Origin: Ulva prolifera
Lineage: Eukaryota > Chlorophyta > Ulvophyceae > Ulvales > Ulvaceae
DNA: 64,000 bases
Reading direction: 5' to 3'
NCBI GenBank assembly: GCA_023078555.1
Contig: CM041196.1
Coordinates: 9,442,985-9,506,984, forward strand
The notes below the pieces were generated by a model that worked only from the letters and a program-made list of their open reading frames with translations, made no database searches and was not told where the DNA came from. The position numbers and the translations under genes are program-made. How positions within the stretch are numbered: the first letter of the stretch is position 1; every line of letters starts with the position of its first letter. Shown here in pieces: positions 14,207 to 63,736 of the stretch.

Positions 14207-14234
14207 GGTGGCCGCCATATGGGGGATGACCTAC

Positions 14235-34213: not shown

Positions 34214-37200
34214 TCAGGCCACAGTCACACAACCCCCGCCGGGGTCACCCTGCCGCAGCTCCTCATATCGGTCACGCTCGCTCGGTCCTCGGCACAGGAA
34301 CCGCCGGATCGCCAAGCCGCCGGGCGCAACCGCCACCTTGCACTCGCTGAAAGAGTTCGTCTCCTCCACCGCTGCCCTCTCCACATGAAACGCCAATGAG
34401 CACCTGGCCACGTCCACCCGCCGAGCCGTCAGCACACCGTGCTTCGTCACAGCCACCCCTTTGTCGCTGCAGTCGCGCAACTGCACCGCCTCGAGCGTCA
34501 TGTGCGTCTGGGCCCCCCTCATGCACGCACCGGGCCACCCGCCCCCGCGTCGCGCCGCGCATGCGCAGCGCATCCCAGGCGACCTGAATCGCCTGCAGCC
34601 CGCACCGCCCGCAGACGGCGCACGGGTCCACAGAATCGCACTGTGCGTCCCCAACATGGATGCCCATGCGGCACTATGAGATCTCGGTCTCTCGCACCCT
34701 CACGCCCGCTCCATTGATCACGTCCACTCCAATGTCCTCTGAGGACAGAGTGCAGCGCAGCAGCGACGCCGTGTTCCGCACACCGGCCACCAGGACCCCT
34801 CTCAGCGTGCTTGACAGGTCACAGGACACAAGCTTCAGGTCCCCGCTGCCAGCGGAACAAGCAGCGGCTGCAAACAGCCCTCCATGAGCTTTGACGCGCT
34901 TTAAATTTGCATTGAGCGCGCCACCACCCTGCCTCACAAGCAGCGCAATTGATTCAGCGGTGCACTCGCAGTCCTGCGCTGCGAGCTTCCCAACGCCGGT
35001 CACGACGAGGCCATGGTTCGTGGCGTGAATTTCGCAGTCGATGACTGACATACTCGCGGCGCCGCTCACGACGAAGGCCTCCTTTACTCCCGCCCCCACC
35101 GTGCACTTCCGCACTGCACACGTAGCCACTGGCCCGTCTGCAATGATGGCACTCTCTGAGTCAGAGAAGCGGCACCCCTCCACCGACACATCTGCGACTG
35201 TCGTCACACAGCTCCCGTGCCCCTCTGCAGCAGCCGCCTCAAACGAACACTCTTCGATTTTCGCAGACACGCCTCCGGCTACGGCGATGTCCTGCGCGTG
35301 GTCGCGAAAGGAGCAGCCGCGCACGAGCACTGCCGGCACCTCGCGCAGAGCGATGCCCCCTTCCAGTCCTACGAACCCCCGGTCAAGATGAAGCGCAGCC
35401 AGAGCCGCACGGTTTGCAGCCCGCACGTCCGCATGCCCCTTGAAGCGGCAGTCAATGATGTCGGCGCGGACCGCCACCTGCACCTGCACCGCCCGGCTGT
35501 ACCCCTTCAGCACCACTCCATGCATGCGAAGCACGGTGGAGGGTTCCAACTCGTGCGGCACCGGCGAGGGTCGCGACGCCAAACATGCAGTTCTCCACAG
35601 ACCCACCCTCAATGTCAATCTCCCCGCCAGTACAGGCGTACGCAGCAGGAGGACATGCAAAGATCTCCGCAGGGTCTGCAGCCGACCATCTGGGCTGTTG
35701 TTGGGCCGGTCCGGTCATCGCCGCGCTCATGTTGGCCACGCGCGAGTCCTTCACCCGCACCCGGCCGCTGTTCACATACACCCCGATGTACCCCTCCAGG
35801 ATTCTGCAGCGCAGGAAGCGTCCGCGCGCGCCGACGCCTATCAGCACAGCCTCATGCGGCTGGTTGCACCCCGGCCGCGGCAGCATGCCACCGCGGAGGC
35901 ACACCCTTACCCTTTCCGCTGCAACGACGGCCTCGTCGATCGCGACACACGCGCTCCCCGCGGCTGCCGCCTGCCCACCCTCAACCCGCAGAGCCGCGCC
36001 CGGGTCGCACACGTGGTGACACATGTCGACAGCACGGGCGTCGCAGGTTGACGCCCCCCGCGTGACTGCCGCAGTCGCGCACCAGCACACAGCACACAGC
36101 GGCGGCTGCGCAGCCGGCACAGCATCAGCGCGGCGGCACCGCCCTCACTGACCCTGAGCGCCACCCCGTCTGGACTGCGCATGTCGCAGCACGTCATCTG
36201 CAGCCGAGCTGCACCCGACACCCCTCCTGCGGACCGCAGTCCAGCCTCACAGCTGCCTGTGTCTGCAGGCCCCTGGGCACGGAAGAGGGCGTCCGTCATC
36301 GCCCCCCGGGCGCCGTCCACCAGCGTGCATGCCTCAGCGCAGCGGACGCTGCTATCGCACACTTCCAGTGACGCTGTAGCACCAGCGGCGACGGCGGTCC
36401 TAGGAAAGTCGGCAATGTGGCACCGGCGAAGGCGTCCCGTGCCGCCATGCATGCGCAGCCACGTCCCTTCGTTTTATGGTGCAGGGGCTGCTGGTGTCCT
36501 GGCTGCCGGTGCCAGTAAGGGTGCAGTCCTCCACGGAAATGTGGCTACCGGGGTCATTGGCAATCACGGCAGTGGCGGTGATGTCGTGTAGGACAGAGGA
36601 CTGCAGCGCAACAGAAGCTCCAGCCTCAGAGATGACGCAGAAGCGGCAGGTGTGGAAGGAGCAGGCGGTGAGGGTGGCGTGGTGGCGGGGCCGTGGGCAA
36701 TGAGCGCGGCAGGGCAGCCGCGCCAGGCGCAGTCGGACAGGGCGACGGAGGCGCCGTGCACGATGTAGAGGGTGCAGGCGTTGAAGGTGCACGCCTAGAA
36801 GCTTCCGTGGAAGTCCGAGCCGGCGCATATAATGGTGCCGCCTGTATTGAGAAGAGAGTCCACGCCATAGAATCGACAGCGTAGCTGATCGACAGATCAT
36901 GCATTGGTGGAGTAGCTGCTTTCATTGTGGAGGCAGAAGCTCAATCAGTGAATCAGGCTACGAGGGGGGTCAGGGGTGACCAGATCAAGCAACAGCGAAC
37001 GTGTATGACCACTAGGTTGTCATAAACGCGGAGCTTCAGTCATGCAGTGCTCAGCGGCTGCTGTCCTGCCCTGAAGTAGGCACAGACTGTGTACAGCTGC
37101 AACGCACCATCGTCTGTGCATCACCTGCATCAATGGGTGAGCACAGCGAGGTCTCTGCGAATCTGTGTTCGCAGACAGTCAGGACTGTCCACCGTGCCTG

Positions 37201-38501
37201 GGAGACGAAGACCGAGAGTAACATCAAGTGCGATGTTCGGGCATATGCAGGGATCGGATCAGTTCATTGTGATCCTGATTGTTTTGGGAATGTGGGAACG
37301 GTCTGTCCCCGGCAACATATGTTGCGGGCGGCTCTGACAGGATCAAACGCTCTCACGACTTGCCACATGGTGGCGACACAAGTACAGCTTTGGCCTGACA
37401 TTGTGAGGACGGGAGTGAGGGACGGGTCTCACTGCAATCCATGCATGATGCAGGTCCAGGGCTAGGACCACGAGCACTGCAATGTACACCTGGGTCACTG
37501 GCGTCTGTACTCCTCCAGGAGTTGTTTTTTCTGCTCCATTGCAGCCGTGCAGTTAACATGCCATGCTTGTATCACTTTGGCATCAGACCAGGGAGGACAT
37601 ACCAATGAATGTGGTGTCCCTGAAGTGAGCTCCTTTTCCAGATAGCAGAAGAACGCCACTTGGTGCGATCGTGATGGTTCCCCCCAATACAAAGCCACCG
37701 AAAGTGGAGCATCTCTAAACAATGAAGCTGTTCTCCAGGGGCAATCGCCCCGTTAGCATGCTCCTCGTGGCACACTTCGAGCGGTAGGATCACATGGAAA
37801 ACTGCCAGACGTGATCTCCCATACGAGGTCCTCAAGCGAGGCCACATGGCCCTGCATTCAGACACACAACATCTGTGGTAAGATGAGAGTCTATGTGATT
37901 CTGTGACAAGATATGCAAAGGCGTCGTTGCACAGGCACGACTAAGTGTCCTGTGACACTCTCCAAGACCCCAACACCCGCCTGACAGATCCTTGAGGCAA
38001 GACCAGCCACACGATTTCGAACACAGCTTTGGTATTGACCTGCGATTTCTTTATCCGTAGAGTGATGTAGATCTCGGCTACTCAACCAGGACATGCATAG
38101 CGACAAGCAGTCGCGACAGCTGGCCAGGCTCATCATATGTTACATATACCAGCTTTGAGTGACCGATATAACAGAATACGCACCAAGGCACTCGTACGAG
38201 CTGTCAGCACTACCGACTGGGAGTATTCTGCGAAACTCCATGTCAATTCCGATGTTGGCACAAGGTCAACAACGCGCGCCCCGGCCCGGCCACATCCACA
38301 CTTGATACAGACGGATGGCAAAGTGAGAGCACCAGAAGGATGAGATATGCGCGCGCTGTGGCCGCAGGCATGAGTGCGGACAGCATACTCACCGAGAGCG
38401 ATCCAGCTTTCTTTAGACATCTGCTTGCGCAGCCTAAGGCCTGAACACACGGAGGGGCAGCCGGCGCGAGGCCTGCACGATATACAAGAATCAATTGTCA
38501 T
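34214..38501 (-). pseudogene. Parallel beta-helix protein, copy C (nonsense and frameshifts)
   Basis: The same three-exon layout as copy B is visible: exon 1 about 38,501-38,190 (TWxA-like ESWIALGEYAV, THACGHSARISH, CIKCGCG), exon 2 about 37,855-37,606 and exon 3 from 36,841 leftward to about 34,214. Exon 3 has an in-frame TAG at 36,797-36,795, where relatives have CAG (SFQ to SF-stop). It also runs through at least four frames (breaks near 36,420, 36,080, 35,580 and 34,670). Exon 2 is shifted too. Some single-base shifts may be sequencing errors, but the nonsense codon is a substitution and so more likely real. Long frames remain, so decay is recent. Confidence 0.6.
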
Positions 38502-38948
38502 GTAGCATTAGCGCAGGCGCTAACAAATTCACAGATCCCACTAGGTGCAAGCACAGAATCCCTCTAGACACCTATACAACTGGTCGAGGAGGTTGGCGAC
38601 ACTACAGAATTGCAGGCACGGTTGAGACCCAGAATGTGGCGGAGGTCAATGTGAAGAGTTGCACAGCTCGATTTTTTTTCAATACGAGGGTTGTCCGAGT
38701 TTTCGTGCAATAGCACAAGGCCGTAGCTATATAGAGCTCCTCTGGTTGCGCACGTTTAGGAGCGCTGGTTCAGGCCTCGTTCGCCACTCGCAGGAGCTCT
38801 CTGGCAGCGGACACAGTTTTGTTTTTGCAGCGATTGCTTTTAGACAGGGATCTACTTGCGCGTCGGCTGTCCTGGCCACTGATGCCTTGTTCTGTTTCCA
38901 ATTTTGGTCCTTGCTGCCAATCTGGAATCTGCAAGAGCTTTATGTAGA
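38502..38948. promoter_or_regulatory. Bidirectional promoter region, unit C
   Basis: About 450 bp between divergent starts; it aligns in part with 32,760-33,186 (for example the AATCCCTCTAGACACCTATA block at about 38,557 and 32,821), so the promoter region was duplicated with the gene pair. Confidence 0.5.
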
Positions 38949-39296
38949 ATGAAAAGGCACCGCGTATACGCCCTTTCGCTGCAACTCCGCTTCACTGAAT
39001 CCGCCGTAGCAGTTCTGGGAGGGCCGATCGTTCTGGACATCCCTGGCTCCTGCTCGCGCAGAAGCGCGCTGATAGCTGACTTTCGTAATCAGCTTGTAGA
39101 TGATCAAGCCATCGTTCCGCTTCCGCTGTCGTGGGAGGAATTGCAGGCGTGGGTTGCCTGCGTCGAGGGACGTAGCCATGCAGTGTCTGGTTTGGTGACC
39201 AGGGCCTGCAGCGTCCAAACAAACACACCGAAGGAACAGGAGAAACACACAGACGACGCCGCATATCATGATACCACGCACGTGCGCGCCTTGAAG
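38949..39296 (+). CDS. POZ/Skp1-like protein, exon 1
   Basis: Exon 38949-39296 is 116 codons and ends ALK|GTGAGT, a strong donor in phase 0. The first ~75 residues (SLQLRFTESAVAVLGG, RRSALIADFRNQL, IVPLPLSWEELQAWV) follow the layout of the Skp1 POZ half: beta strands, a helix, a variable acidic loop, VPLP, and a helix with Trp. The similarity is weak and by eye; BTB or an unrelated fold is possible. A Skp1 C-terminal F-box-binding half would have to lie in later exons, which I did not find. It is head-to-head with beta-helix copy C. Confidence 0.45.
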
Positions 39297-40213
39297 GTGA
39301 GTTGTAGCAAAACCATTCGATGTCTCAGTGGTTTGACTTTACTGTTCCGCTTTGTCCGTGAAGTAGGCGGGCCTATTGTATGAGTGTTGCGCCTAAATTG
39401 TTTAGACAGGGCTGCCTCGTCGCTGTGCTGGCCATCAATGAGATCACAGCGACGTGCAAAGCACACGTGTGGTGTGCTAGCATGGCACTGCTAGTGGCAG
39501 TACTACTATAGTATGCATGCTAATTGGTGGTGATGTCACTGAGGCGTCGCCGATGATTCTGATGGACCACTCATAATTCGACCCATACCGAGGTTGCTTT
39601 CGGCAGTGCATCAGCTTGATCACCCCAAGCAATTGTATTCGGTTATCACTAGACGGTTCGCTTGAGTCTTTGACCACCACTGATCGAACTGCAGCACTGT
39701 TACAATGCGTGAGGGAAATCACGATCATTCGGCTGCGGGCAAGGTCAGTTCTGTTGGGTGTCGAGTTTCGACATCTGGGAGGCAGGCCATAAGCAGTCGC
39801 AGGTAGAGCAGAGGATCATTCATCACTGCGTTCACACATGTGTATGAACAGCAGCACTGCCCTAGAGTTGCTTGCGTAAGCGCGTGCAGGCTGCGACTTC
39901 CTCCGAGACGATGCCACCGCCGGGCAAGTGGTGGATACCTTTGCAGAATTGCTGGCAGACTTCACAGTCGGAACCCCTCACCAGAGCAGAAACGTCGGAC
40001 GGCAGAGGTGCGGCCTGGAACAGCACACGTCTAGCACACCCGATTGACAGCTGCGCTAGAGATGATCAGGTGATTCATGCGCTGGTCTGCTGTCCACATC
40101 TCGCCTTCATGGAACTGGAACCCACGCCACAGAACCATGTCAAATCTGGCTGGTGAAATAAAATCGATCATCATGTGCATTGACAGACATGTGGACCTTG
40201 GTTTGTCAGTAGC
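39297..40213. other. Intron or intergenic sequence downstream of the POZ-like exon
   Basis: Begins with the donor GTGAGT. No second exon could be confirmed by comparison with other copies. No repeat noted. Confidence 0.3.
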
Positions 40214-42147
40214 ATGACCTTCTACATCAGCTGCAGCTGGCCAAGCCATAGGAGCCTGGCCGTGCAGATTGTCCAGGCGGTGTCCCACTCCTCGTTGCTG
40301 GCCATCCTGGCCGCCGTGTGCAAGAGACACAGCCGGGGCCGCTGCGCCGCACCTCCGGCTGGCGACAGCTCCTACGCCCACCCATGCCCAAGCTACCCTC
40401 CCAGCACCGCCGTCGGCCCCTACGTCGTGCGGCTGCTGCAGCTCCTGCCTCGCATCTTCCACCCGGCCGTCGTGACTGCGTGCTGCCTGGACCCCACAGA
40501 CAGGCAGTCGTGTGACCTCGCTCTGCGTGACGGCCGGGATTCTGGATTCCTCCATGTCTTACAGGCGTATGGAGACCGAAGAGCTGACGCAGCTCCTCGC
40601 GGCGGCAGCGCCGCTTGCGGGGGGCTGCCTGGAGCTAGCGCACGCCCCTCGTGCTCGCACGTCTGTGGACGATTCAGGTGCAATCCGCTGGCACGTGTGG
40701 ATCGAGGACCCAGAGCTCGCGCCCGGGGCACCCTTGAGAGTGAAGACCCGTGGTCATGTGTGCGGGGAACCGGCAGAGGCGGCGTGCGGCACGGAGTGGC
40801 GGCTGGCGGCGGGGGCCGTGACGCGCCTCCAGGTGAGCGTCCCCGCATGCCGCACCCGGCTGCAGGAGCCGCTCCAGTGGTGCACCGCGCTGGCGCAGCT
40901 CCGCACGCTGCGTTCTCTTAAGGTCGTCATGGCGCATGGGCCGCCGGGGTTGGGCGCCGGCGGCTTCACGTCCGCGCTGCGGAGCCTCCCGGACCTCACA
41001 CACCTCTGCATCGACAGCGCGTACTCCCGCGACCCGGCTCTATGTCCGACTAGGAATTTCAAACGTAGTACCTACGCGTGGCTGTACGTAGACATATGGC
41101 AGCTGCTCGAAGGGGTTGCGGCGGTGCCGCCGCTCCAGTCGTTGGATCTGGACCGCGGATTCAATGTGACCCCCACTGCGGACCGGGCACATCGCGAGTC
41201 CGCAGAACGCGCCCTGTCGCAGCTGTCACGTCTGTCACGCCTGACGCGTCTTCGCTACGCTGGGAGGGCCGACGTGTCAGCGCTCGCGCATGTCTGGGGT
41301 GGGGTCATCAGGCAGCTGCCAGCTCTGCAGAACCTCTGTGTCGTCCTGGTGAAGGACGGCAATGGGCGCGAGATACCCGAAGGTGACACAATGCAGAGCG
41401 GGCTGCTGCAACAGCCTGTTTGGTGGCGCAGGGTTGACGTCGCTGCTACACCTCCAGATGAGTACGGAGGCCGGCCGGGGCCTTGTAAAGAGATCTGTTG
41501 ACGCTCCAGTCGCGGAGTGCCATGCATGTATGCGCAAGCACAACCTGGCCCTGCTTGCCCGGCTGACGGGCCTGTACCTCGGCGCTGGCCTCTTTGGGTG
41601 CGAGCCTGAGGGCGGGCTCCGTGGCGGCCCTGCTCGCCGACATGCCGGCGCTGCAGTCGCTGCGCTTGAATTCGGACTCGGTAGGAACCACGCTCCGGGC
41701 GCGGTCTGAGCGGAGCTCCCGCGACCTCCTGAGCCTGGTGGCGGTGCTGCCGGGTCTGGCAGGGCTGACGCGCTCGACGTCAGCCGCTGCGGCGAGAGCG
41801 GCGCGGCTGTGCTGGCCGTGCTGGCCGCTCTAGCGCAGCCTGGCAGCCTTGCGGTGTGTGAGGGGCTGCGGGACCTGGACATCGGGTACAGCGGAGTTGG
41901 GCCGCAGCACGCGGTGGAGCTCGCCGGGCTGCTGGGGCAGTTCCGCGGCCTCGAGCGGCTGGGCATCGAGTGTCTGGGGCTCTGTGAGCGGTATGGCCTG
42001 GAGGGGCTGGGGGTGGTGTTGCGGGCTGTGGCCGCTTTGCCGCGGCTACAGGTGCTCAATGCGGCGCGGAATTGCCCTGCGGAGGACAGGGCGGCGGCCT
42101 GGGACTTGACTGCGGGCCTTGCGCATGTGAGGGAGATTCGCCTGTGA
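40214..42147 (+). CDS. Leucine-rich-repeat protein (frameshifted), possible F-box-like N-terminus
   Basis: Repeats of the xLxxLxxLxL type run through the region: LRTLRSLKVVM, LPDLTHLCIDS, PPLQSLDLDRG, LSRLTRLRYAGR, LPALQNLCVVL, LARLTGLYLGAG, MPALQSLRLNS, CEGLRDLDIGYSG, FRGLERLGIECLG and LPRLQVLNAAR, ending at the stop after REIRL. The start (LAVQIVQAVSHSSLLAILAAVCKRH) resembles the second half of an F-box, where LAxVCKxW is typical, but this is weak. The frame changes near 40,550, 41,480, 41,590 and 41,800, so introns, decay or errors intervene. A partial inverted copy lies at 27.4-27.6 kb. It probably mediates protein binding. Confidence 0.6.
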
Positions 42148-43163
42148 GCAGAGCTCTGCGGCACAGTGAGGTGCGAGAGCAGCAGCATGCGCAGTGCATG
42201 TGGCCATGGCACACCTCGTGTTGGTAACAAAGAATGTTCGTAACTTGTAACGACGGCACGGCAGCAGTGCCTCGTTGCCTGGTTTGCTGCTGTAGAGCGG
42301 GTCTGTGTTGTTTGGGGCCTCGCTCGAGTGTGGTTCCTAACCTGTTGCAACAGGTGAGGCGGGATACGCCACATCGAGGTGTCCAGACTTGATCCATGCT
42401 CCAACGGCAGTGCTATGCTGCTAAATGCCGCTACAGCCACATCAGGTCAGCAACCGGATCAGACCAAGCACATGGTGTCATGGTTTGCCCTGCTAAAGAC
42501 ACTATCGCCACCACTGCCTGGCGAACGTACCTCTGGCATGCTGAGGACGGCCGGAACGTGTGGTTTGCATGAAGCCGAGTGTGCTGACACTGCCGAGATC
42601 ATGTGGCATCTGCAATAAGGGAAAAAATTGCTGGGCCACACACAGTGCCTGTCATGAGCAAGACTTCGTGAATGTGTCCTGTGATTGCAAGCTGTTGTGT
42701 TTTGGCTCAGGCACTTCATGGCATGCTCGCCTGTGTGTGGTCTTGTGTGCTGCGTGGCGCTGCTCCTCTGGCCTTGTCCAAGGGCAGCCCCGGGTTGGGC
42801 ACGGCAAGATCGGCCGGAGCCGGCCATGTCAACACACGTGACCAAGTTCCATGCATACACGAACGTGCAAGCACAGCCGCTGCTGTGAAACGCAATCATC
42901 GGAACCTCAGCATGCCGCTCAGAGCACACAGATGCTTCGTGCCATGTCATTCTTCACCAGATGAAGAGCGAATACACTCCTGGCCACACAAGCACTGTCT
43001 ACTCCTCTGCCGCACACAATGGCTGCAACACACGTCATGTACACCCGCCTGCTACTACACAAGGGGTTCACAAAATCCAGCCAGTCCACATCCTCCAGAA
43101 AGTTTGAAAAAGGAAACACAAGGAACAGGATATCAGGCACAGGTGCGAAAAATCAGGCCACAG
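42148..43163. other. Interval between LRR gene and beta-helix copy D
   Basis: No supported gene. The right part (42,900-43,120) matches the 3' flank of copy B and may be a duplicated 3' UTR. Confidence 0.35.
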
Positions 43164-46100
43164 TCACGCATCCCCCTCGGCAACCACCTCAACGCCCCGC
43201 ACCTTCTCATACTCCAACCGGTCGCCCTCATTCGGCCCGTGGCACAATATTCCGCACGTCCCCACAACCCCTGACGCCCCAGCCACCTTGCAATCGGTGA
43301 AGTCGCTCCTCTCAGCCGACACCGCCCTCTCCACATGAAACCCCAGTGGACACCCGGCCACGTCAACCAGGTGCGCCGACAGCAGTGCGTATTTCGACAC
43401 AAACGCCCCCATGTCGCCGCAGTCGCGCAGCTGCACCTCCTCGAGCGTCACGCGCGTCTGGGCCCCCTCGTGCACGCACCGGGCCCCCCGCCCCCGCGTG
43501 GCGCCGCCGCGCGCGAGCAGCGTGTCCCATGCATGCTGAAGCGCCGCCGGCCCGCCCCGTCCACAGAATCCGCACGGCCCCTCAAACTCACACGGGAACT
43601 CCCCGGCTTTCACGCCCATGTGGCACCGTGAGATCTGCGAGCCCCGCACCGTAGCGGCCGCTCCATTGTGAACAGCCACTCCGACCTGGTCTGCTGTAAC
43701 CGTGCAGCGCAGGAGCGATGCCTTGTTCCCCGCCCCCGCCACCTGGACCCCCCTCTGCGGGCCCGAAAGGTCACAGGAGACAAGCTTCAGGTCCCCGTTG
43801 CCAGCTGCGCACGCGGCGGCTCCGAGTCCCCCGCCGTGAGCTTTGACGCGCTTGGCCGTGAGCACCCCCTCCCCCCTCCCCCACGAGCAGCGCCGTCATG
43901 GCGGCCGTGCACTCGCAGTCCTGCGCCGCAAGCTTCCCACCGCCGGTCACGACGAGGCCCTGCGTTGTGGCGTGAACCTCGCAGTGGATGGCCGGACATG
44001 CTCGCGCCGCCGCTCACGGAGAATGCCTGCTGCACTCCCGCACCCACGGTGCACCTCCTGAGCATGCATGAAGCAGCCGGGCCGTCCGCAAAGACCGCGC
44101 ACATAGCGTCAGCGAAGCGGCACCCCTCGACCGCCGTGTCCCCGAACGTTTTCACGCAACTCTCGCGCCCCCCGGACGGAGCCCCCTCAAACGAGCACTC
44201 TTCAATCCTGACACTCACGTCGCAATGGACAAAGATTGTCCTGGCCGTGGCCACGGAAGGTGCAGCCCCGAACAACCGCCGCCTGCACCCCACGCAACGC
44301 GATGCCCCCTTCCACTCCCGCGACCATCAAGTCCGGATTGTGTGCTGTTAGAGATGCACGGCTCGTGGCCTGATGCCCGCATGGCCCTCGAACCGGCACT
44401 CAACGATGTCGGCTCTGGCCGCGTCGTGCACCTGCACCGCCCGGCTGTACCGCTTCAGGACCACTCCATGCATGCGCAGCTCGGCAAGCGGGCCCGTCAC
44501 GCCCCGCACCGGCGCCGCGATGACGCCAATCATGCAGTTCTCAATGAACCCACCCTCAACATCGAGCCGGCCCCCCGTGCAGACGTACGCTGCAGGAGGA
44601 TCGGCGACGAGCGGCCGCGCTGCTGGGGGACACTGTTGGGCCGGTGCGGGCATCATCGCGTTCATGTTGGCCACGCGCGACTCCTTTGCCCACACCTGGC
44701 CGCGGCTCACGAATATGCCCATGAAGCCCTCCGGGATGGTGCAGCGCAGGAAGCGGCCGCTCGCACCGTCCAAGATGTTGACGGCGGCATCGGGCCGGGT
44801 GCCCCCCAGCTTCGGCAGCAGGCCCCCCCGGAAGCATGCCCCGGCTGCTGCGACAGTCGCCTTTTCAATCGCAACGACTGCAGCCCCGGCAGCCGCCACC
44901 TGCCCACCCTGAACCCGCAAGGCCGCAAGCGGGGAGCTGACATAGCAACAGAATCATCACCGCGGGGCGTCACAGTGTGAGACCGCCGCGCGGCTGCCGC
45001 AGCCGTGCATTACCACACAGCGGGAGCAGCGCAGCCGACACAGCAGCAGCGCGGGCGGCGCTGCCCTCACCGACCCTGACGGCCACGCCGTCCAGGCTCT
45101 GTGCGTCGCAGCGCGTCATCTGCAGCCGCGCTGCGGCACGAGAATCAGGCTGACACCCCTCCGGTGGCTCGCACTCCAGCCTCACCGCGATCGCGCCCGG
45201 CGGGCCCTGGCCACAGAAATGCACCCCGGAAAGTGCCCCTCTCGCGCCGTCCTCCAGCGAGCACGCCTCGGCGCAACGAATGCTCGTCGCGCAAGCTCGA
45301 GTGACGCCGAGGCACCAGTGGCGACGGCGGTGTGTGGAAAGTCGGCGATGTGGCAAGCGGCGCAGGCGCGCCGAGCCACCATGCATGCGCAGCCAGCTGC
45401 TTTCCTCCGTGGCGAAGGGGGAGCCGGCGCTGCCGGTGAGGGTGCAGTCGTCGGCGGAGGACGCGGCTACCGGGGTCGTTCGCGATGACGGCGGTGGAGG
45501 TGATGCCATGCAGTTCAGAAGACCACAGCGCGGCAGAGGCGCCGGCCTCGGCGATGACGCAGAAGCGGCAGGCGTGAAACGAGCAGCCGGTGAGGGTGGC
45601 GGTGGTCAGAAGGCCGTGGGCGATCAGTGCGGCCCGGCAGCCGCGCCAGGCGCAGTTGGACAGGGCGGCGGCGGCGCCGTGCACGAGGTAGAGCGTGCAC
45701 GCGTTGAAGGTGCACCGCTGGAAGCTTCCGCGGAAGTCCGGGCCGGCACACATGATGGCGCCACCTGCACTGAGAAGTTATCAGAGCGGTAGAGCGGAGA
45801 GGATGTGTGGTCGATAAAGTGTGGCCTGGCAGAACACCGTGCCCTGAGGTGGAGGGGCCTGTGGAGCAAAGAAGATAGATGGTTTTCGGTGGGGGTGTTG
45901 ACTCATTCGGACATTGGCCGACCACAGCAATGCATTCAGGCGGCTCTTTGCAGGGCAGACCACTGACCCGACCTGACAGGTGGCTGCGGTGCAAGGTCAG
46001 ATGTGAGACTGGACGTGAGCTGGGGATGTGGGAGCTCCTAGGCCTTATCCCATGCCATGAATGATGCACCACCTGACCAGGAGCGCTCCACTGTGTGGTC

Positions 46101-47079
46101 TTGCACAGACTCGGCTCCATGACAGACTGTCAGCTACCGCATTGTGCAAAGAAGGGCCCACCGGTGAAAGTTGTGTCCCTGAAGTGAGCTCCTTCGCCGG
46201 ATAGCAGAAAGACACTGTTGGCAGCAAATGTGATGGACCCCCCCAGGACAGATCCACCGGTAGTGCAGCATCTCCACACGATGAATTTGTGCCCCGTTGC
46301 CCCGTCCGCCGCGTGCTCCTCTGGGCACAGCGCGGGCGGAAGAGTCACGTGGAAATTATGGGCTGTGATCTCCCGCACCAGGTCCTCAAGCGACGCCACA
46401 TCGCCCTGCAACAGGCACACAGATCCTGTGACCAGCTGTTGAATAAATCGCAAGACATGCTGCCCGCGTCGGTGCACAGCCACGGCGAAGCGAGTCGTCA
46501 GGCGCACTCATGACTGCAGAGAGCTCTGCAGAGTTAGAATTCTCGGCGGATAGCTTCATACGGCAGGACCGGCTGCACGACATAGGCCGCGACTGCAAGC
46601 GCATGTTTGAAACGTTTGTCCTTCAAGTGATCGAGGAGATGTGCTGCTTCACCTGGGCAATGCACTGCCGCAAGCAGTCGCGATGAGCACGACTGCAGGC
46701 GAGATCGGCACGCCGTGCTCATCGGCTCCTGTTGAACATGAAGCTGCAGCAGAGGGCATGAGTTGGGCAAAAGGCGCACCGCATCACCTGTATGAGCTTG
46801 TATCCTCACTGCCTTGGAGCATGTTGCGCTATCCCATGTAAGCTCTGCTGTTGGCACACAGTCGATAACGGGCGCCAGTGCCCCTGCCCTACCGCAACCA
46901 CACTGAACACAGACAATTGAACATTGGAGAGCACCAGACGGCTGAGCTACGTGCGCGACGTGGCCGCAGGCGTGGGCGCGGATAGCACACTCGCCGCGAG
47001 CGAACCAGGTTTCTGTTGACATCAGCTTGCGCAGCCTGAGGTATGAACACACAAACGCCAGCGGCCACAAGGCCGACAA
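43164..47079 (-). CDS. Parallel beta-helix protein, copy D (duplicate of copy A, complete C-terminus)
   Basis: Exons correspond to copy A: 47079-46780, 46405-46162 and 45764-43164. It supplies the C-terminus missing from copy A, including the CGFCGRGG insert, RCVHEGAQTRVTLEEVQLRDCGD, GFHVERAVSAERS and the stop at 43,164. Ten single-base indels relative to copy A occur within exon 3 (for example GGCCGGACATG for GGCCGACATG) and split the frame. Since copy A is open over the same interval, the breaks here are probably sequence errors and not a real pseudogene. Confidence 0.6.
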
Positions 47080-48295
47080 CGTGAAAAAGAGTCGGAATCT
47101 GCTTTTGTGATCACGCCAATATCGCCACCGAGCGTAAGCGTCAGGCGTTGAAAGCTAATGGAAATGTTCGCCAGATCAGGTGCCGACGCAGGATCCCTCT
47201 GGACACCCCGGAGGGCTGCAGATATTGGGCAGGGCTTGAACGCAGGATGTGGCGGACATCAAATGGCATGTGGCGCCAGTTCAAGGGATTCTCTGATGAT
47301 TGTTGCAGAAACACACGACTACCATGCGGTGTGTAGAGCTGGCCTGCAACCGTTGAACTCACAGCGACCACGATTCAGCCGGGAGAGATGCCGGGAGAGA
47401 TGATTCATATTGTCTGCATCAGCGTATGTTTCAAGGGACTGGGTGGAACTCTGTCTACATGCATTGCGCGCTCGCAGGTTGTGAAGGAGGGGGCACGCCG
47501 CGTGTCGCGCGCATATGCGGAGTGATGTTTACGAAGCCGTTGCTGTGTAGATAGCCATTCGACAAAGACACGTCAAGCTACGATCGAGTGCCATGGCACT
47601 CGCATTCCACACGCATGCCATTAGCCACTCAGCATTGCTGAGTCAACGACAGCATAATCGGTTGCGACCGCTTCCCAGCTTCTGCCAGGGAGCCCGCACG
47701 CAGCATACGTGTGCCCACAGCAGCATTCTTCTGTTGCAATATCTACGCTGCAGCGTAGATATTGCGCGCTGCCTATGTATCCGCTAGATATACTATCCGG
47801 CGCGAGATATGTGCTGTACAGCATCCAGTACGTACTGGATGCATGCGCAAATTACGTACGTACCTGCTGCAGAGGTCATCAGTAATTGTGCACATCTGAC
47901 GTGTATGCATCACGTTGTACCAACTAGTGGTTCGCGACCGTACGCACACATATTGTAAGACCGCCGCGTAGGCTGTAGGATTGAGGGTAAAATGATGCAC
48001 TGTGCAGTGTGTATTGCCTTGGACAGTACAACAGACGTAGGGCTGACGCACCTGGTTCATATATATAGGCCGTGCACAGCTACATATGTAGGGATCATAC
48101 TCTGTCTGCTAGGATAACGCTGTAACAGAGTGATCGACTTGTTCCTGATTTACAACAGCTTCTTCTTGTGGGAACACATCTGCGCGACCATAGTTTTGGC
48201 ACCGAGATCTCGATTAATCCAATAATGGATCCAACATGGGGGTTTTGCTCTCCGCGCCCGATTTTTGAGGTCTGCAAAAGCTCAGCAGAACAGCA
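47080..48295. promoter_or_regulatory. Duplicate of the palindrome-rich divergent promoter region
   Basis: Same sequence as 3,516-4,731, including the 30-bp and 22-bp perfect palindromes (offset 43,564). Confidence 0.45.
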
Positions 48296-48389
48296 ATGAA
48301 ACGGCAACTCGTTGATCTGCCTTCCTTGCAGCTTCGCTTGAACGAATCTACGATGGTCGTTCTGGGCGGGCGTTGTACCATTGAGCTGG
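48296..48389 (+). pseudogene. POZ-like 5' stub (duplicate)
   Basis: Identical to 4,732-4,825; cut by the CACTA terminus at 48,390. Confidence 0.6.
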
Positions 48390-48864
48390 CACTAGGAGAA
48401 TGGTGACATTCCGGGGCGGAACCGAAGGCGTTCCGCTGACAGAGGAACGTTCCTACGAGGCTCTTGACCTTCCGCCCGCGTGCGTATGCTTCACAAGGAA
48501 CGATGGTGGCGGAATGTCCTATGGCTTCCTCGGTGGCCGCGGAATGTCCGATGGCTTCCTTGGTGGCCGCGGAATGTCCTATGCTTTCCTGCTGACAGGA
48601 CTGCGGGCTCTTCCACGGCGAGGAACAGGCCGCCCGCGCAGGTGAGAACCAGTGGGAAGCCATGGCATGCTGAGCCTGTCGCGCACAGGTTGGACTGGCA
48701 GTCTAAGCGTGGGAATGTTCATGGATAACGCAGTGCACCTCGAGCAGTGGATTTTGGAATGAATTGTGTACTTTAAGCTGTAGATGCGATGCGCACAAGC
48801 GACGCGGACACGCCGATCTATAAGCGTGAGCCCTTATCGATAAACGAGCCCTCATCGATAAGCG
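48390..48864 (+). mobile_element. CACTA-type left terminus (duplicate of 4,826-5,300)
   Basis: Same terminus and subterminal GGAATGTCC repeats as at 4,826. Confidence 0.6.
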
Positions 48865-49678
48865 TGAGCCCAGTCAGCGCCATCGTGGAATGGATGGTGG
48901 CCCACCAACCATTCCGCATGCGAGCAATGCATGAGCCCAGTCAGCGCCATCGTGGAATGGATGGTGGCCCACCAACCATTCCGCATGCGAGCAATGCATG
49001 ATCCCAGTCAGCGCCATCGTGGAATGGATGGTGGCCCACCAACCATTCCGCATGCGAGCAATGCATGAGCCCAGTCAGCGCCATCGTGGAATGGATGGTG
49101 GCCCACCAACCATTCCGCATGCGAGCAATGCATGAGCCCAGTCAGCGCCATCGTGGAATGGATGGTGGCCCACCAACCATTCCGCATGCGAGCAATGCAT
49201 GAGCCCAGTCAGCGCCATCGTGGAATGGATGGTGGCCCACCAACCATTCCGCATGCGAGCAATGCATGAGCCCAGTCAGCGCCATCGTGGAATGGTTGGT
49301 GGGCCACCAACCATTCCGCATGCGAGCAATGCATGATCCCAGTCAGCGCCATCGTGGAATGGATGGTGGCCCACCAACCATTCCGCATGCGAGCAATGCA
49401 TGAGCCCAGTCAGCGCCATCGTGGAATGGATGGTGGCCCACCAACCATTCCGCATGCGAGCAATGCATGAGCCCAGTCAGCGCCATCGTGGAATGGATGG
49501 TGGCCCACCAACCATTCCGCATGCGAGCAATGCATGAGCCCAGTCAGCGCCATCGTGGAATGGTTGGTGGGCCACCAACCATTCCGCATGCGAGCAATGC
49601 ATGAGCCCAGTCAGCGCCATCGTGGAATGGATGGTGGCCCACCATCCATTCCGCATGCGAGCAATGCATGAGCCCAGG
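48865..49678 (+). repeat. 67-bp palindromic array (duplicate of 5,301-6,114)
   Basis: Twelve units at the same spacing; the unit order and variants (perfectly paired units 7 and 11) match the first copy. Confidence 0.9.
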
Positions 49679-49877
49679 ACGGCTGAAGTGTCTACAGGAT
49701 GCCCAGTGTCGATGCTGTGACGTCCTGTGGAGCTCGCCAAGGCCAGCCTGGTTTCTCATGGACACGCACTTCTCACACGCGCTGTATCCATATGCCTCCT
49801 TGACAGTACACCATGCGCCTAGTATCACCGTGGATCATTTGACGCGAATCTGGTCGTGCCTACTCTGCAGTGTCGCA

Positions 49878-51507
49878 ATGAGGATAATTACCAGGATCAG
49901 TCCGGCGAACGTGTCGCATTACCTCGCCGTCCTTGAGGGAAAAAAACAATACGAGCCCACATTTTTCGAATTCGTAAAGGTAGCAGCGCGGGGCAATTGG
50001 TTACCAGGGCAGAGTATACCGCGACTGGTCCAGTACCGACCACTCGGTTTTCCAGTCGACTTGATGGAATGCGGGTGGCTGTTAACAGCTTGCGATGTAG
50101 CCACAATAGATAGCATATTAGCCGGCGACGAAGCAGCGGGGCCCCGGATGATGGCAGCCTTCGAGGCAATGCGACGAATGCTGACGACGGAGTACATGGA
50201 GGCGACGACTGAGTACAGCGCTGCGACCATCCACCTCAAAATGTTATGGGTAGTGCTTCGTGAGGGCGCTTTTAAGCGGGCGGTTCAGACCGGAGCTCCA
50301 TGCGGGCCACCGGAGATTCAGCTGTACCGGTCCATAGCCACGACCCAGGGGTTCGACGAGGACATGGGGGGGATGCTCCTGCGAATCCAGATGACAGTCG
50401 GAGGGGCCCCGATTATAGCATGGTGGGGAAGGCTGCAGGATAGCGAGCCGCAGACCACCCCGATGTGGCCGAGAGAGCCAGTCATTGAGCACCCTCTCTC
50501 GGCCCCAGATGTGCCGGCCCATCTGGCGAGCATGGGAGGGCAGCCATCGGACTCACGTGGAGGGGTGGTCGGCGCAGCCCAATCGCCGGCCCCCGTCAGG
50601 GCGCCGATCCAGCAGGCGGAATCCTCAGGGCAAAGTGTTGTCCACGAGTCCACCTTGCGAGTTCGCACAGGCGGTATTCCCGGGTCACGTGAGACCCGGA
50701 CACGTGATCCAGGCGCTGCTGGACGGAAAGAGGGAGCGGTGGGGGCGGAACGAGGGGGCAGCGCCGGCCCCACAGTGGCGGGGGGGGCTGCAATCGGGCA
50801 TCCACTGATGCAGCCCGCCGTCCCCCGCCGGCGGGCCCACGGCGCAGCACAAGCTGCGGCTGCAGTGGTCCCCCCAGAGCCACCTCTGGGGCCGTCGCGC
50901 CAGGATGCCGGAGGTGCCACGCCCATGGAGGTGGACACCCCAGACGGTGGGGAGGCCGCTGCAGGCCCCTCGGCAGTCCAGCCAGGGACGCTGTCTCCAG
51001 CGTGCTTGCTGCCTCCGGGTAGCGATGTTCGGAGGCAGCCTCTAGTCCAAGCACTGGAGAGGGCTCAGACGCGCCCGCTGGTGCGGCTGGCAGCCGAACC
51101 TTCGCACGACGACCCCACAGGGGTACGCCTCCGTGGCCAGGTGTTCGGACCGGACGACATTGAGGGTTGTTCAGGATCCTCATTTATCAAGGGTGTAGGG
51201 GTGCAGCTCGGCAAATTTGGAGACGCGACGGTCTCCGTCACCGTCTCTGTGTTGCACTTCAGGGACTTCTGGGTGGCGGAGTGGTTCAGCAGCACTCCAG
51301 TCCAGTATGGGGTAGTCAAGGCTGCAGTATTGGCCGGAGGGGGGGTCATTGCCGTCCCGTCCGACCACCTGAAGGTCCTGGCCACTCGGGACCCCAGCAG
51401 CGACGCAGAGGCCCGCGCGATGCTCCAACACCTCATCGCGTGGCTGAAGAAGGCGAAAGCACTAGCAGCGAGGTGTATCCTCATCCCGGTCCCCACCGGG
51501 AAGCACT
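49878..51507 (+). CDS. Unknown domain-C48 protease fusion, copy with open frame, cut by gap
   Basis: Duplicate of the gene at 6,314-8,846. Here 7 A and 5 G at the two homopolymers leave one open frame from the Met at 49,878 (or an upstream Met at 49,668) through the N-terminal domain, the Pro/Ala-rich linker and the first part of the protease, to the His of the catalytic His-Trp. The sequence then runs into N at the first base of the Trp codon. Asp and Cys are missing from this copy only because of the gap. Confidence 0.75.
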
Positions 51508-51607
51508 NNNNNNNNNNNNNNNNNNNNNNNNNNNNNNNNNNNNNNNNNNNNNNNNNNNNNNNNNNNNNNNNNNNNNNNNNNNNNNNNNNNNNNNNNNNNN
51601 NNNNNNN
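51508..51607. other. Assembly gap (100 N)
   Basis: Exactly 100 undetermined bases, the usual placeholder for a gap of unknown size. It follows directly after the duplicated segment and lies between two C48-fusion genes that face each other tail-to-tail. The join is suspect. Confidence 0.99.
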
Positions 51608-54208
51608 GCAGTCCATTTGGTAATATGCGCGACTGTCAAGGGTCAGAGGACAGCATCTGTGTGGATGGTATCGCAGGAGAACAGTGGGACGTGGGCATTG
51701 TACCTTCGCCAACTTCAGGGTTATCCTAGCGGTGGATTCGGTCGGCCGGGTGGCCAGTCGGACGTTGTGTGGGCGGCCCACTGCTTTTACCCGAGGCCGG
51801 GTGGTAGATGCGGGGTCTTCCGGGGGGGAGGGGGCCCGGCCCTCGGGGTAGTCCAGCGCCATGCACAGAGCCTCACTCAAGACGTCCCTGGCCCGTTCAG
51901 CGGTGCCTGAGCCGGCGCTGATCAGGCTGTCAAAGAACGACACAGTCGGCGCCTTATTCTGCTTCATACGCCCTGCATTATGGCTGAAACGTCAGTAGTG
52001 GCGTTCAGCGGGCCTACTGTGGGGGGGGGGGGGGGGGGTATGGGGGGGCGGGGGGCAATATGACAGTCCTACGCACAGCAGGCTACCTCATCACAAAGTC
52101 TGCTGCGGCGGGAGAGCGTACATGGATGCCAGATGACAGCCAACATCCAGTGGCCGTTCCGGGGGGACAGGGACTAAGACACATTCTTGCTCAAAGGGTG
52201 TGAGCTTTGAACAACCACCGCCCCATAAATCTGGTGCGTCCGCTTGACCAGTCTGCGTCCGCATCCCCAGTACATATCCCAGCCATATTCTGGCTAGCGT
52301 TGCAATGACGCCCTGCCCGGCCAGTGCAACACACCTACTCAAGGCGTAGTCAACGTGTGTACTCTCGGCCCATGCGGTGGGCCAGCCTCTCGCGAGGGTT
52401 TCCAGACCGACTGTCACAGGACACCCGAGCATCCCCAAAATGCCCTAGTTGCAAGATCACACACCCCCCACCACATTCGGGAACCTCCCCCCATCGTCGT
52501 CGTCGGAGGACACTACGGTCGGTTCAAGCTGCATCCTGCGTTGTGTCGGCAGCGGATGTACCGGCGTCTTTGGAAGTGGACCCCCCACTGCTGCTTCAGC
52601 TTGCCCGGAGGCTTTGCAGGGATGTTTGTGACCCAATCCGGCGGCACCACCGGAGGGTGTGCCAGGAGGGATGCTGACAGCCGCGCTATCCCTTACCGGC
52701 GGGCCGAAGGCTCCGGGACGTCCGGGGCAGGAGGAGGTGCGGACTGGATTGGCCCCTCTTGACCGGGTGCTGGACAAGCAGGCTCCGGAGAGGTCCGGAG
52801 CGGGGGGGGGGGCCTCGCCGATGGAGCAGATGGCTGCACCGACTGGGGCAGGTTGGGGGCCCCTCGCTAGGGGCCATCATCAGGGGTGACGGATGGAACC
52901 GGATTGGCATCGGTGTCCGACCTCGCCTTATTGTCTCCTTCGGCAGGGGGGTCCGCAATGGGCCCTTCCCAGGCGGGGGGATCATCCGGGGGACCTGCCG
53001 GCCCCGCGTCTGCGGCAGCTAGTCTGGTTTCGATAGCTGTAGCGGATTCGTCCAGCCGCGGCGGCGGCAGACAGCCACTGGTCCGCGATGGCGACGGCGG
53101 CCTCACAGGGCCAACCGGCTGTGGGGACTGCTGGGGCAACGCCACAGGGGGAACCCCTACTGCAGCCGGCCCCTCGGGCGGCGGATGATCCCGGCTAAGG
53201 ATCTGCGCTACGGCCGCAGCCCCCCCCCGTGCGGCACCCCGTGCCCCCCTGGGCCACCTAATTCGGGCGGGCTGCTGAAGACTGGTGCCCCGATCTGCGC
53301 GCCCTCTACCCGGAGCCCGTGCCCCTCGTGCCTCGCCAACCCGCTGCTGCTGCCGCGGATGGGTGTGTCTGCCACGCCCCTGGCCTTCGGTCACCCGGGC
53401 CTATGCTGGTGCCGCTGGACTCTGTTGGCGGCGGGGCAGCGGCTGCACCCGGTCCTGGGGCTGTGGCGGTGCCGGTGACGCCCCCAAGAGCGGCGTCGGG
53501 TCCCCCCCGGTCTTCACCGTGCGACCCGCCCGCCCCACCCCTCTCTAGCTGTAACGCCAACATGGGCGCCTGCAGAGGCCCCACATGAACCTCGGAGACA
53601 GGCCACTTAGGATTTGGAGTCCGTGCGAAGTTTGCCTCGCACTGTATCCACTCGCAGATCAAGTCTGTCCCGCCCGTGTGCCGCACACGTTCGAGCAGGC
53701 CGCCAGCGTCTTCTATGATGCCCGCGCCGACCTGGCAAGACCGGTACAGCACGATCTCCTCTGGCTTGCACGGGGCCTTAGTATGGACCGCGCGCTCGAA
53801 TGCGATCATCCGGAGGTCGTGCCAGAGGGATTTCATCTTCTGCTCTACCCGCGCGGCGTGGTCGGCGGTGTGTGAAGCCTCTACACTCTCCTTCATCGCC
53901 CGGATCGAGTCCAGGTACATGTCTAACCCTTCCCCCCCGGCCTCCACTATAGAGCCCACCATGGTAACATCTACAGTCGTTAATAGGTAGGCGTTGGCCA
54001 TGAAGTCTATCGGGAACCCGGGCTTCCGGGTACAGATCGTTAGTGCTGGGATCGGCTGGCCAGGCGTCCAGTTACCCTTCAGGGCGGTTTCCAGGAACCG
54101 CTTGAAAGACGAGTCACACTGACGGTTACTACGAATTGTCGCAAGGTAGGCCCGCAAGTCCCCGTCCGTTATCATACTGGCACACATCGTGTGGACTGTA
54201 CACCGCAC
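51608..54208 (-). CDS. Unknown domain-C48 protease fusion, second paralogue (partial)
   Basis: From 54,208 leftward the product matches the fusion at 6.3 kb (GNWTPGQPIPAL, GFPIDFMANAYLLTTVDV, LWHDLRMIAFERAVHTKAPC, EIVLYRS). A low-complexity Pro/Gly linker follows in shifting frames. The protease part shows LAGQGVIATLARIWLGYV, then a frame change, then His-Trp at 52,152-52,147 (GHWMLAV), and in a further exon FFDSL with the catalytic Asp at about 51,930. The region expected to hold the Cys box falls at or beyond the gap. It is downstream of the transposase on the same strand, spaced about 330 bp, suggesting one transposon. Divergence from the first paralogue is large, so the two lineages are old. 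Confidence 0.65.
52021..52038 (+). repeat. Poly-G run (18 G)
   Basis: A G18 run followed closely by further G7 and G5 runs; likely within an intron of the minus-strand protease gene. Confidence 0.7.
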
Positions 54209-54538
54209 AGAAACGTTCTATCCGCGCTATCGCGACGCAGTCTTCCTACATCAACTGCATCAGACCTTGCACCTACCATTAATCTGTCCGCTGGACCTGC
54301 GACGTGCACTAACAGACGACACCGACGCTTGAAGAGGGAGCGAAAGTGGCCACGAGCGCACGCCGCAGGACGTGGGTTGTATGGCTCCAACGAGGGTGGC
54401 GCCTGTAGACACGCACTGGCGGGGACTCTGGTCCCCCCCGTGGCCCTCTGGCAAGTATGGAAAATGCAAAGTGGGCACAACTGGGATTGCCATCAACTGG
54501 GATTGCTGACGAAGGCATTTGGCGGTGGTCTTGTACAA

Positions 54539-57500
54539 TTACACAGTTCGGCCAGAAGCCTTGTTCGCTGTGGACCAATACTGCACATTTTGTGCACCCC
54601 TCCGGACTGGAACTAACTGGCATGGAACTGCGTCCAAGTCTACGACGTATCTGCCGGCATATGCCCGAGACCCCCTGTTTGCACCCGCCACACCGAAAAA
54701 CTCGGGGGGACGTTTCAACACGGGATCTGGGGCGCGGGCTCCCGGGGTGGCTGGCAAGGTGCAATTATACAGATCAGCAACCCCCAGGTACAATGGGTTT
54801 GGTTTCGCAACACATGACACGCAACACACGCCATCCCGGGGCTGCAGACACGCCCTCGTGAAATACTGCAGTTCCCCGACGAAATACGTCACTGTCCCGC
54901 CACCCCCGTCCCCGTCCCCCCCAATGAGGTACCTCAAGAGGCACCACTTGTTGTCTTTCTTCCCTTGCGTACACTGTTGCGCGCAGCTGAACATGTCTGC
55001 AACGCGGGATTGCATCTGGTGGAACTTCATAAGTGTCACTGTGCCCTCACGGCGAGCCTCATCAACACTGCCATCCACCTTCAGGCCCAGAGCTCGGTGG
55101 ATGGCCACCTGACGTGCATAACCAACCCCCAGGCGACTGTGAGTTGGCCAGCCCTCGTCCTGTAGGGAGTCCTGATGGAAGAGGAGGTACGGCAACCCTG
55201 TCAGATTATCTCCCACAAAGTCCAGGGGGAGGACCGCCGCAGTCTCAGACTGGGCTAGGGCCCTGCCCACCCCCACGACCCTGCCGGTGATCCGGTCACT
55301 GTCAATTGGTTGCTCCCCGTCAGCGGATCTTCCATTGCGAGTTCGTGCCCGCCGGCGTTTCTCAGTCGCTATGGCATCTGACAGTGAAGTCATGGCAGCA
55401 GGTAGTGAAGCTGCATCATGCAACAGCCGCATACATGTGCGGCGCAGCAGTTCATCGCTCACATATACTTGTTCAGGGCAACGAGTCGATCGATACTTGA
55501 TCAGTCTCTTCAGGAGCTGGACCATCCGCTCGATCCAGAATTCAAGACTGAAGAAGGATGCACCGCAGCACCTCACCTGATCCGGTAGGTGACTGGCCGC
55601 CAGATGCAGCTTGTACGTGCTGAGAGCAGCCCCTTCAAACGTCTCTTCCGCCAGTTTGGCGTACTGCAGCAGCAATCGCTGTGCTTCCGTGATTCGGGCC
55701 GGTGTGTGCTGACCCTCTTCATATCTGAGAAAGTAGAGGGCCCCTGCTCGCAGGAGCCCCCACGACTGCTCAAACACGCTGCGTATGCGTTTCTCGGAGG
55801 CTTTCCACGGGAGATCGTGCAGGAGGTACAGCGAGAATGTCTCGGTGAAGGCCAGCCAGTCTTCCATGAGCCAGCGACTGCGGTGCCTACGCAAACAGTC
55901 ACCCTGACTCAGACGGGATGCTTCAACAGGAGTGCACATGGTTCCTGTGTCCAAGTAACAGTCCGAAAAATGGCGCAGCCTCGGATGCGAGCAGGGTGTG
56001 CAGGCGATGGGACTGCGCACTTGGTGATGTCGGTGTACACCTTCTTGAAAAGAGAGGTCTGCATGATGTGGGGCGCTCTGGCAGCTATCGCCTTGACGAC
56101 ATCCTCTGGCAGTCGGAACAGGGCCCGGAGGCCAGTCAATGGCGCCTTCTTGGACTTCTTCCGGCCCAGGGGAGGGAGCCACTGGTTCCAGAAGTCCATG
56201 AGCACACCGAGCAGAAACACGTGCGCCACTCCGAGCCGGAAGAAATGGCAGGGACTGCAACGCCACAGCGTAATTCATAATCAACTCCAGACTCAAGGGC
56301 GAGGCAGGCAGCAGCAGGCTGGGGGTGCTCGTACTTGAAGTAGGAGAGGAGACTGAACAGCGGAGAACCTTTCACCCCCAGTAGCTTGTACTCATCTTTG
56401 GCGAGCTTGGCCCTGGACTTCGGTGTCTTCCGGTCGCAATAGCGTTTCAAGGTTGGTGCGTGGACCTGCATTACCACAGGCCTGGCCAGGGTTACCACAA
56501 GAAAAGAGCCGTATCACCAACGACGCTTGTTCGGTGTCAGAGGGGTTGGCAAGATGAGTTGCGGCGCACAGAGGGGGGGCAGGGGAGTAGGCCGCATGTG
56601 CACAGTTTGCATTCGATGACACTGTAGATGGAATTGCACCTGGGCAGCGATCGTGTCGCCCTTTCGGCCCCTGGCCAGGATCTCTGCCGCCGAGTACTTC
56701 AAGCGGTTGTCCGACTCCCAGGACGAGGGCTGCACATGCCGGGGCTCAGACCACGCGGTCCGTGGGGGGTTGCCACCAGTGTCCGGTTGTACACTCCCAG
56801 GCACCATCCGGGGGTTTGCAGCCGAGGATGCTGCTTCTTCCTCCGGGGTGAGTGATTTCCCTTTCAGAGGCCCGTCGGCATAGCAGGGCACGGGCTGGTG
56901 CAGAGGGTGATGGTGTCCCATCCACCTGTGTGGCATGCATGATAGCAGTTATAAGCAGGACAGGTACGTGAGACAGCACTAGCAGGAAAGAGATTACAAA
57001 CGTAAGTGAACACCCCGGACCTGACAGTGTTGGAGGGGTAATCCCACACGCCGTTTTGGGCACATCTGAAACATGCCCTCTTCGCTGTATGGCCGATGCT
57101 GTTGGTAAGTTTCTCCAGCCATGGGATATCCCCCTCCACACAGCACAGCACCGGCCACACGTGCAGTACCTCGCCCCCGGGCAGTGTGATTTTGAGTGCC
57201 TCACCCCCAGCTCCTGCACTCCAGCCATCACGTGGTGCGGGGGCCAGACACTACGTGATCGGGAACTGTACACATCACCCGGCAGTGACCAGGAAGACAA
57301 GGTGAGTGCGCGCCCGGATCATGCTTCTTGAAGAACGCCATCACGGACTCCAGAATGCTGGCCATGCATGTTGGTTCGGATGGCCCCTCCACCACTCCAA
57401 GGGGAATCCAGGCCACATTGGTACTTGAGAGATGGGGCGGCAGGTCAAGCAGGCGGATCCCCCAGATTGTGACACCGTGCTGCTTGTTGACGTACAGCTG

Positions 57501-59055: not shown

Positions 59056-59392
59056 GGTAGCCAGCCGGACTTAAGCATTCTTGTGAAGATGTTCAACGAT
59101 AGCGCGGCCTCTGGTGTTTGTCGTCCCTATGATGGCATTACGTCCCACGAAGACCTCCCTGTCGCATCCCATGTTCGCCCTGACGCCACAATCCCAGGCG
59201 AGGCGCCGGGGTATCGAGGCAGCCAAACCTTTGAAGGCGGACCGCGCGACGACGCTACATCGGCATACCATTCAAAGCACGGAGCAGCAAAGCATGTGCG
59301 AATGACGCGATATGTTAGCTGTGCCTACGATACGACCATCCACAGTACGGGCCATAGACGTGTGTTAATTCCGCTTTGTCTAATCATCCACC
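59056..59392. promoter_or_regulatory. Divergent promoter between transposase and plus-strand gene
   Basis: 337 bp separate the transposase ATG (minus) from the ATG at 59,393 (plus). No specific motif is claimed. Confidence 0.4.
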
Positions 59393-60115
59393 ATGTCCAA
59401 CCTGCAGTTCACGTTCCTCCGCGCGGCGCCCGTCGTCATCGAGAAAGAAGTTGTAGATGACGCAGACAACGGAGCAGGGATGCTTGACGTGCTGGTCAGC
59501 AACGTGTGGAGCAGAGGTGCCGGCGTCGACGGGTTGACTTTGACGTCAACCGTCGACAAAGACAGCTCCGTTGATATCGACAGTGTCGAGAAACTGATGA
59601 CGTGCGTAAGGTACTTCTTCAGGAAAGGCACTATCGCTGGACTGCTGAAGCCGCCCGTGCTGGTGAAGGCGCTGGGCAAGGGCAGAGGGAGCGTGGGACA
59701 AGCGTCGGCAGCAGTCGGCACTGCACACTCCACAGCTACGGCCTTGACTGCGGACCCGGAAGCTGACAGGCGGTGGGAAACGATGAAGGATGCGGTGATG
59801 ATGTGGACGGAAGGGATGAGATCCAAGGTGGCGGGAATGGCCGATGCCCACACGCAAGGCAAGAAGGTGCAGGGACTAGTGAACCTGGCCCTCCCAGACG
59901 ACGAGAAGGTGTGGGTCGGGAGTATTCTAACGAAAACGCGGGCGGACGCACTCGGCAAAGCTGCACATGGGGTACGGCTGCTGTCTCCGACTAACAACGT
60001 GATTGCAAACTGGGGTCCACTACCACCCCGTCAGGCCCACGGGATCCCATGCCACCGACTGTCAGTGTTGTGTCTTGGCGCGTCAGAGTCGCCATTCGCG
60101 GTCAGTATGCAGTGA
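59393..60115 (+). CDS. Unknown transposon accessory protein
   Basis: An open frame of 240 codons starts in context ACCATGTCC. It has mixed composition, a Val/Asp-rich N-terminal half (VVIEKEVVDDADNGAGMLDV) and a helical C-terminal part (DRRWETMKDAVMMWTEGMRS, KAAHGVRLL). No family recognised. The last ~40 codons may be intron read-through, since a second open stretch (VGRTGEAYKAATNINHAFYR, about 60,133-60,210) looks coding. Divergent from the transposase, so probably co-expressed; CACTA elements often encode a second DNA-binding protein (TnpA-like) needed for transposition. Confidence 0.45.
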   Translation: MSNLQFTFLRAAPVVIEKEVVDDADNGAGMLDVLVSNVWSRGAGVDGLTLTSTVDKDSSVDIDSVEKLMTCVRYFFRKGTIAGLLKPPVLVKALGKGRGSVGQASAAVGTAHSTATALTADPEADRRWETMKDAVMMWTEGMRSKVAGMADAHTQGKKVQGLVNLALPDDEKVWVGSILTKTRADALGKAAHGVRLLSPTNNVIANWGPLPPRQAHGIPCHRLSVLCLGASESPFAVSMQ

Positions 60116-61117: not shown

Positions 61118-61143
61118 CGCGGCCTGCTTGAATCCGCACTTGC

Positions 61144-63712: not shown

Positions 63713-63736
63713 CTCCCCTTTGTTGTCGGTGCCTTG

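Follow-up and report, generated by a model that had tools for sequence, protein, structure and literature searches.

Background

When the same kilobases of DNA occur twice on one chromosome-size contig, were they duplicated by the organism or by the assembly? This question is raised by a locus of Ulva prolifera, which we analysed in a window of 64,000 bases (C1:9442985-9506984; assembly of 88.9 Mb in 44 contigs). Bases 1-7,945 of the window recur at 43,559-51,507. A first, sequence-only reading took these stretches for two assemblies of one locus, separated by long-read indel errors, and named a very recent tandem duplication as the alternative. Window numbering is kept throughout; positions that are negative or exceed 64,000 fall beyond the window.

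False duplications in assemblies are of two types. According to Genome Biol 2022;23:205 (PMC9516828), homotype false duplications arise from read errors and heterotype ones from alleles.

Our present results describe the full extent of the repeat, its boundaries and its relation to two nested transposons (Table 1). We propose that the repeat is a product of assembly.

Results

Extent of the repeat

The two stretches align with 99.82% identity over 7,954 columns, with 0 mismatches and 14 single-base gaps. Relative to 1-7,945, the second copy has nine additional bases and lacks five, and the event list thus reproduces the indel count given previously; the reported absence of substitutions likewise stands. 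After 60 kb of sequence left of the window had been added, the sequence preceding base 1 was found to match 43,164-43,558, a check that had been proposed earlier, and the match runs back to -26,787. In this extended comparison, -26,787..7,945 of contig A aligns with 16,754..51,507 of the redundant piece, called X here, over 34,772 columns, again with 0 mismatches, with 55 gap openings and 57 gap columns. A match of this kind over 34.8 kb is far beyond chance. The originally described size of 7.95 kb is therefore correct for the part visible in the window, while the actual unit is the whole of X, 34.75 kb.

The A/X event list contains 55 internal indel events (54 single-base events and one of three bases), 37 of them absent from A and 18 absent from X. 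The first base of X (16,753), unlike A, was scored as an end effect beside these; with this end row counted, 50 of the 56 rows of the indel table fall within runs of at least two equal bases. The distribution is uneven: consecutive segments of 6.1, 12.7, 10.4 and 5.6 kb hold 10, 0, 43 and 2 events. Further left on C1, at -31491..-29640 in window coordinates, there is a 174-bp tandem repeat with 10.6 copies that are 99% alike.

Table 1. Features of the locus in window numbering
Position	Strand	Feature	Remark
1..7945	+	Primary copy in contig A, portion lying in the window	Full counterpart of X is -26,787 (C1:9416197) to 7,945
4826..15030	+	Repeat F, portion to the left of the E insertion at 15,031	Left end CACTAGGAGAATGG; 67-bp tandem repeats
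15031..16751	+	CACTA-like transposon E, initial 1,721 bp	Contig A ends within E at this point
16752..16752	.	Single N, where A and X were probably joined in error	A ends at 16,751
16753..51507	+	X, 34,755 bases long, probably a redundant contig piece put in the wrong place	Copy of -26,787..7,945; includes reported 43,559-51,507
20398..24623	-	Gypsy-like retrotransposon genes in X (RNase H, integrase, aspartic protease domains)	Also in A's copy, counted twice
28492..31008	-	Beta-helix family gene g1 in X (838 aa, PF13229)	Identical to A counterpart
43184..45767	-	Gene g3 of the beta-helix family in X, split among several frames	Reading frame open in A (-371..2205)
51508..51607	.	Scaffold gap of 100 Ns following X	Matching 100-N gap at C7:6280474-6280573, beside the probable rest of X's version
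51608..64000	+	R, probably a second misplaced contig, runs on to 76,402	Starts inside E (E right end 63,057); matches C9 from 1082961 where sampled

Boundaries of piece X

A single N is written by some scaffolders for overlapping contigs. X occupies exactly the span from a single N (16,752) to the 100-N gap, so that assembly gaps lie at the edges of the copies, as they do on C7 (see below). The sequence-only reading had recognised the right edge at the 100-N gap, and the single N on the left was missing from it. Beyond the window, a further single N precedes contig S, whose first base (76,404) lies inside E. The left end of X is located inside a dispersed element. On C3, a copy of this element aligns with the one in A over 1,700 bases spanning that point, with 99.6% identity. 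Dispersed repeats also hold the right end of X, the end of A and the start of R.

Nested transposons and the empty site

CACTA (EnSpm) transposons are defined by their ends and by a 3-bp target duplication. Element E begins with CACTAGGAG at 15,031 and terminates TTCTAGTG. It resembles these transposons in its terminal inverted repeats, with ends CACTAGGAGAATGGCGACAC...GTGTCGCCATTCTTCTAGTG, and in its target duplications, present in four of the five further copies whose two ends were read (AAG, GGG, GGC, ATG; the fifth is without one) and also between A and S. No transposase domain was recognised among the E frames scanned, a scan that genes with introns may escape. A search of the genome for PF02992 (EnSpm-type transposase) gave no match, and gave none in its control genomes either. 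The length of E is 18.15-18.48 kb in five copies at other sites for which both ends were matched. Using a 1,000-base query whose first 198 bases are the end of A, copies of E were found in 25 places (C35 included), with 98-100% identity over nearly all of the query.

Copies of E are present on C5, C6, C9 and elsewhere, many of them near-identical, and the parts of E in the window are 15031-16751 and 51608-63057. Both ends of E are accompanied by tandem-repeat arrays, with 102-bp units at 15,567-16,125 and 64-bp units at 60,698-61,116. C24 carries E, matching the last 1.7 kb of A and the start of R, with no further match to the locus (26,300 of 26,431 bases).

E sits within F, a second CACTA-like element. 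F also starts CACTAGGAG, at 4,826, and its left end is the feature in which it resembles CACTA (EnSpm) DNA transposons. Its 67-bp tandem repeats are found at 5,301-6,113 and, inverted, at 13,984-14,207.

The E portion of contig S ends at 85,324. The triplet flanking E is CCG on the A side and CCG on the S side, against CAT on the R side. Five E-free copies of F, picked from a larger list, were used as empty sites. A query with the A flank and the S flank side by side, whose S side begins at 85,329, one base after 85,328, matches all five over all 550 bases (91.5-99.3%), with alignments crossing the junction in every copy. With the A flank joined to the R flank, none of the five passes the junction. 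An A|X query likewise matches none of them; the last 250 bases of A are E, not F, hence no match is expected there. As the A flank runs into the S flank in each of these five E-free copies and into the R flank in none of them, X and R appear to have been put inside a gap in E. The common CCG and the E-free sites together argue that the true neighbour of A across E is S. The true chromosome order is thus most likely A-E-S, with 16,753-76,402 inserted into the E gap by the assembly.

The start of R (51,608) lies 5,248 bp past the end of A, as measured on one C9 copy of E. R and C9 are 99% identical over R's first 2,693 bases, which are E, and 100% identical over 54,300-64,000, including 0.9 kb beyond E; a stretch of 3,001 bases reaching 65,856 is without difference, and identity over 75,640-76,399 is 98.2%. 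Because R matches C9 across the sampled stretches (up to 65,856, and 75,640-76,399), it is very probably redundant with C9, a redundancy that the sequence-only reading had left unmentioned. The left end of E, searched as the left end of the R-matching copy, is absent from C9:1075400-1077400. A copy of E on C9 has a left flank (C9:70722-70962) that ends with CAT, as found right of E in R; this agreement may be due to chance (1 in 64) or to another misjoined pair.

Other versions of the locus

The segment C7:6271673-6280473, on the minus strand, shares 99% identity with 7,946..16,751 and starts one base past the end of X's counterpart. Its 7,946 end is followed by 100 Ns (C7:6280474-6280573), its 16,751 end by a single N (C7:6271672) and then by a match to 85,638-87,304 of S (0 mismatches, 9 gaps). 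The most plausible reading is that X and the C7 piece belong to a single redundant version that was divided at 7,945/7,946, presumably during scaffolding. As the C7 piece continues past its single N into the S flank, it provides an independent placement of A's end beside that flank. The position of this part on C7 could also mean that X and the C7 piece form a real second copy elsewhere, a recent segmental duplication of which one half was misplaced on C1. We regard this as very improbable: the C7 piece repeats the assembly break itself, with the same E insertion point, a single N at A's end and the same S flank, and X is free of substitutions.

A further version, covering -1,806..16,751 and 802 additional bases of E, is the unplaced contig C35 (19,351 bases). 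It differs from A by 15 mismatches and 75 gap columns, and from X, over the shared 9.8 kb, by 3 mismatches and 45 gap columns. C35 crosses the end of A into E, not into X, as other E copies do, which is evidence against the A|X junction.

Quality of the versions and their genes

In a majority comparison of A, X and C35 over -1,806..7,945, A stands alone in 2 columns, X in 20 (indels throughout) and C35 in 34 (23 indel, 11 substitution). Over 7,946-16,751, C35 and A differ in 24 substitution columns; some such columns between these two versions adjoin gaps. The stretch 12,430-15,428 behaves differently: there the C7 piece and C35 agree with 0 mismatches and 3 gaps, and A is odd against both in 26 columns (18 indel and 8 substitution by MAFFT; 4 mismatches and 22 gaps by BLAST). 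No version among A, X, the C7 piece and C35 is therefore uniformly the best.

The intact g1 protein matches g3 of A in one stretch over residues 1-835, g3 of X in five stretches and three frames, and g3 of C35 in one stretch, with an identity of 51% against 64%. The longest stop-free stretch of g3 is 868 codons in A, 406 in C35 and 243 in X. Gene g2 is broken in both A and X, worse in X (longest stretch 482 codons in A, 346 in X).

Large beta-helix (PF13229) genes, with DNA likeness of 73-80%, are clustered at 28492-31008 (-), near 34330-36846 and at -371..2205; further matches to the family are located on C1 at 9364934 and 9546849. The chlorophyll a/b-binding family has 38 matches in the genome. 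One that was tested resembles LHC proteins of the green lineage, with chains of entry 9vfj on top in total score (2 to 6 matched stretches).

Discussion

We propose, with a probability of roughly 96%, that the repeated stretch is a homotype false duplication, an assembly artefact formed when redundant contigs were misplaced into a gap in E. The assembler would have left the locus in several unmerged versions that differ mainly in single-base indels: A, X (on C1) together with the C7 piece, and the unplaced C35. Contig A would have broken 1,721 bp into an 18-kb CACTA-like element that has many near-identical copies. Its proper neighbour would be S, starting in the same E insertion, and X and R would have been placed between the two through single-N and 100-N joins. 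The interpretation of the sequence-only reading, two assemblies of one locus, gains support from the N edges, the C7 continuation, CCG, the E-free sites and the broken g3, and the leftover differences between the versions are presumably read errors, as it had assumed.

The differences between A and X look like errors rather than alleles, with indels only; C35 and C7 show a few substitution columns against A. Assignment to the homotype class rests here on sequence and gap evidence, read depth being a further part of its definition. Compared with homotype false duplications as treated in PMC9516828, the locus is alike in under-merged sequence with read-error differences, in assembly gaps between the copies and in false gene gains; it differs in that the redundant piece lies in a gap within a nested transposon and that one version is split over two chromosome-size contigs.

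Some observations count against this reading: A is odd over 12,430-15,428, C35 has substitution columns, the indels are uneven, and g2 is broken in A too. An extremely recent real duplication of a 35-45-kb block with the beta-helix gene cluster, around CACTA-like elements and with the indels as true differences, is hardly to be expected. The tandem alternative named at the outset, a real duplication of very recent date whose period would be about 43.5 kb, found no support and is highly improbable. The copies do stand in direct order on one scaffold, and C35 alone would also suit the far end of a second unit. A continuous junction would be needed, whereas the boundaries are exactly Ns, C35 carries A's end into E, and A connects to S at the E-free sites, with CCG common to both. 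In addition, 34.8 kb carry 0 substitutions, the second version continues for 8.8 kb on C7, where it is attached to the S flank by a single N, and one gene is frame-broken in X only. That X is the other allele (a haplotig, or heterotype false duplication, an artefact in either case) would give the same redundancy pattern and agree with the few substitution columns of A against C35 and C7, but is scarcely credible with 0 substitutions between A and X over 34.8 kb and private gene-breaking indels that look like errors.

A homotype false duplication would have consequences for the use of this assembly. About 59.6 kb (16,753-76,402) would be misplaced, and counts of genes, transposons and segmental duplications would be misled at this locus. 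In C26, C27 and C2:3401674-3416606, pieces of the gypsy element share their spacing and the pattern of their orientations, which suggests more redundant contigs in the assembly. Nested transposon insertions and their target-site duplications offer a read-free test of contig neighbours. At the locus itself, three genes of the beta-helix family and a gypsy-like element are doubled in the assembly, and the frame-broken copy would pass for a pseudogene.
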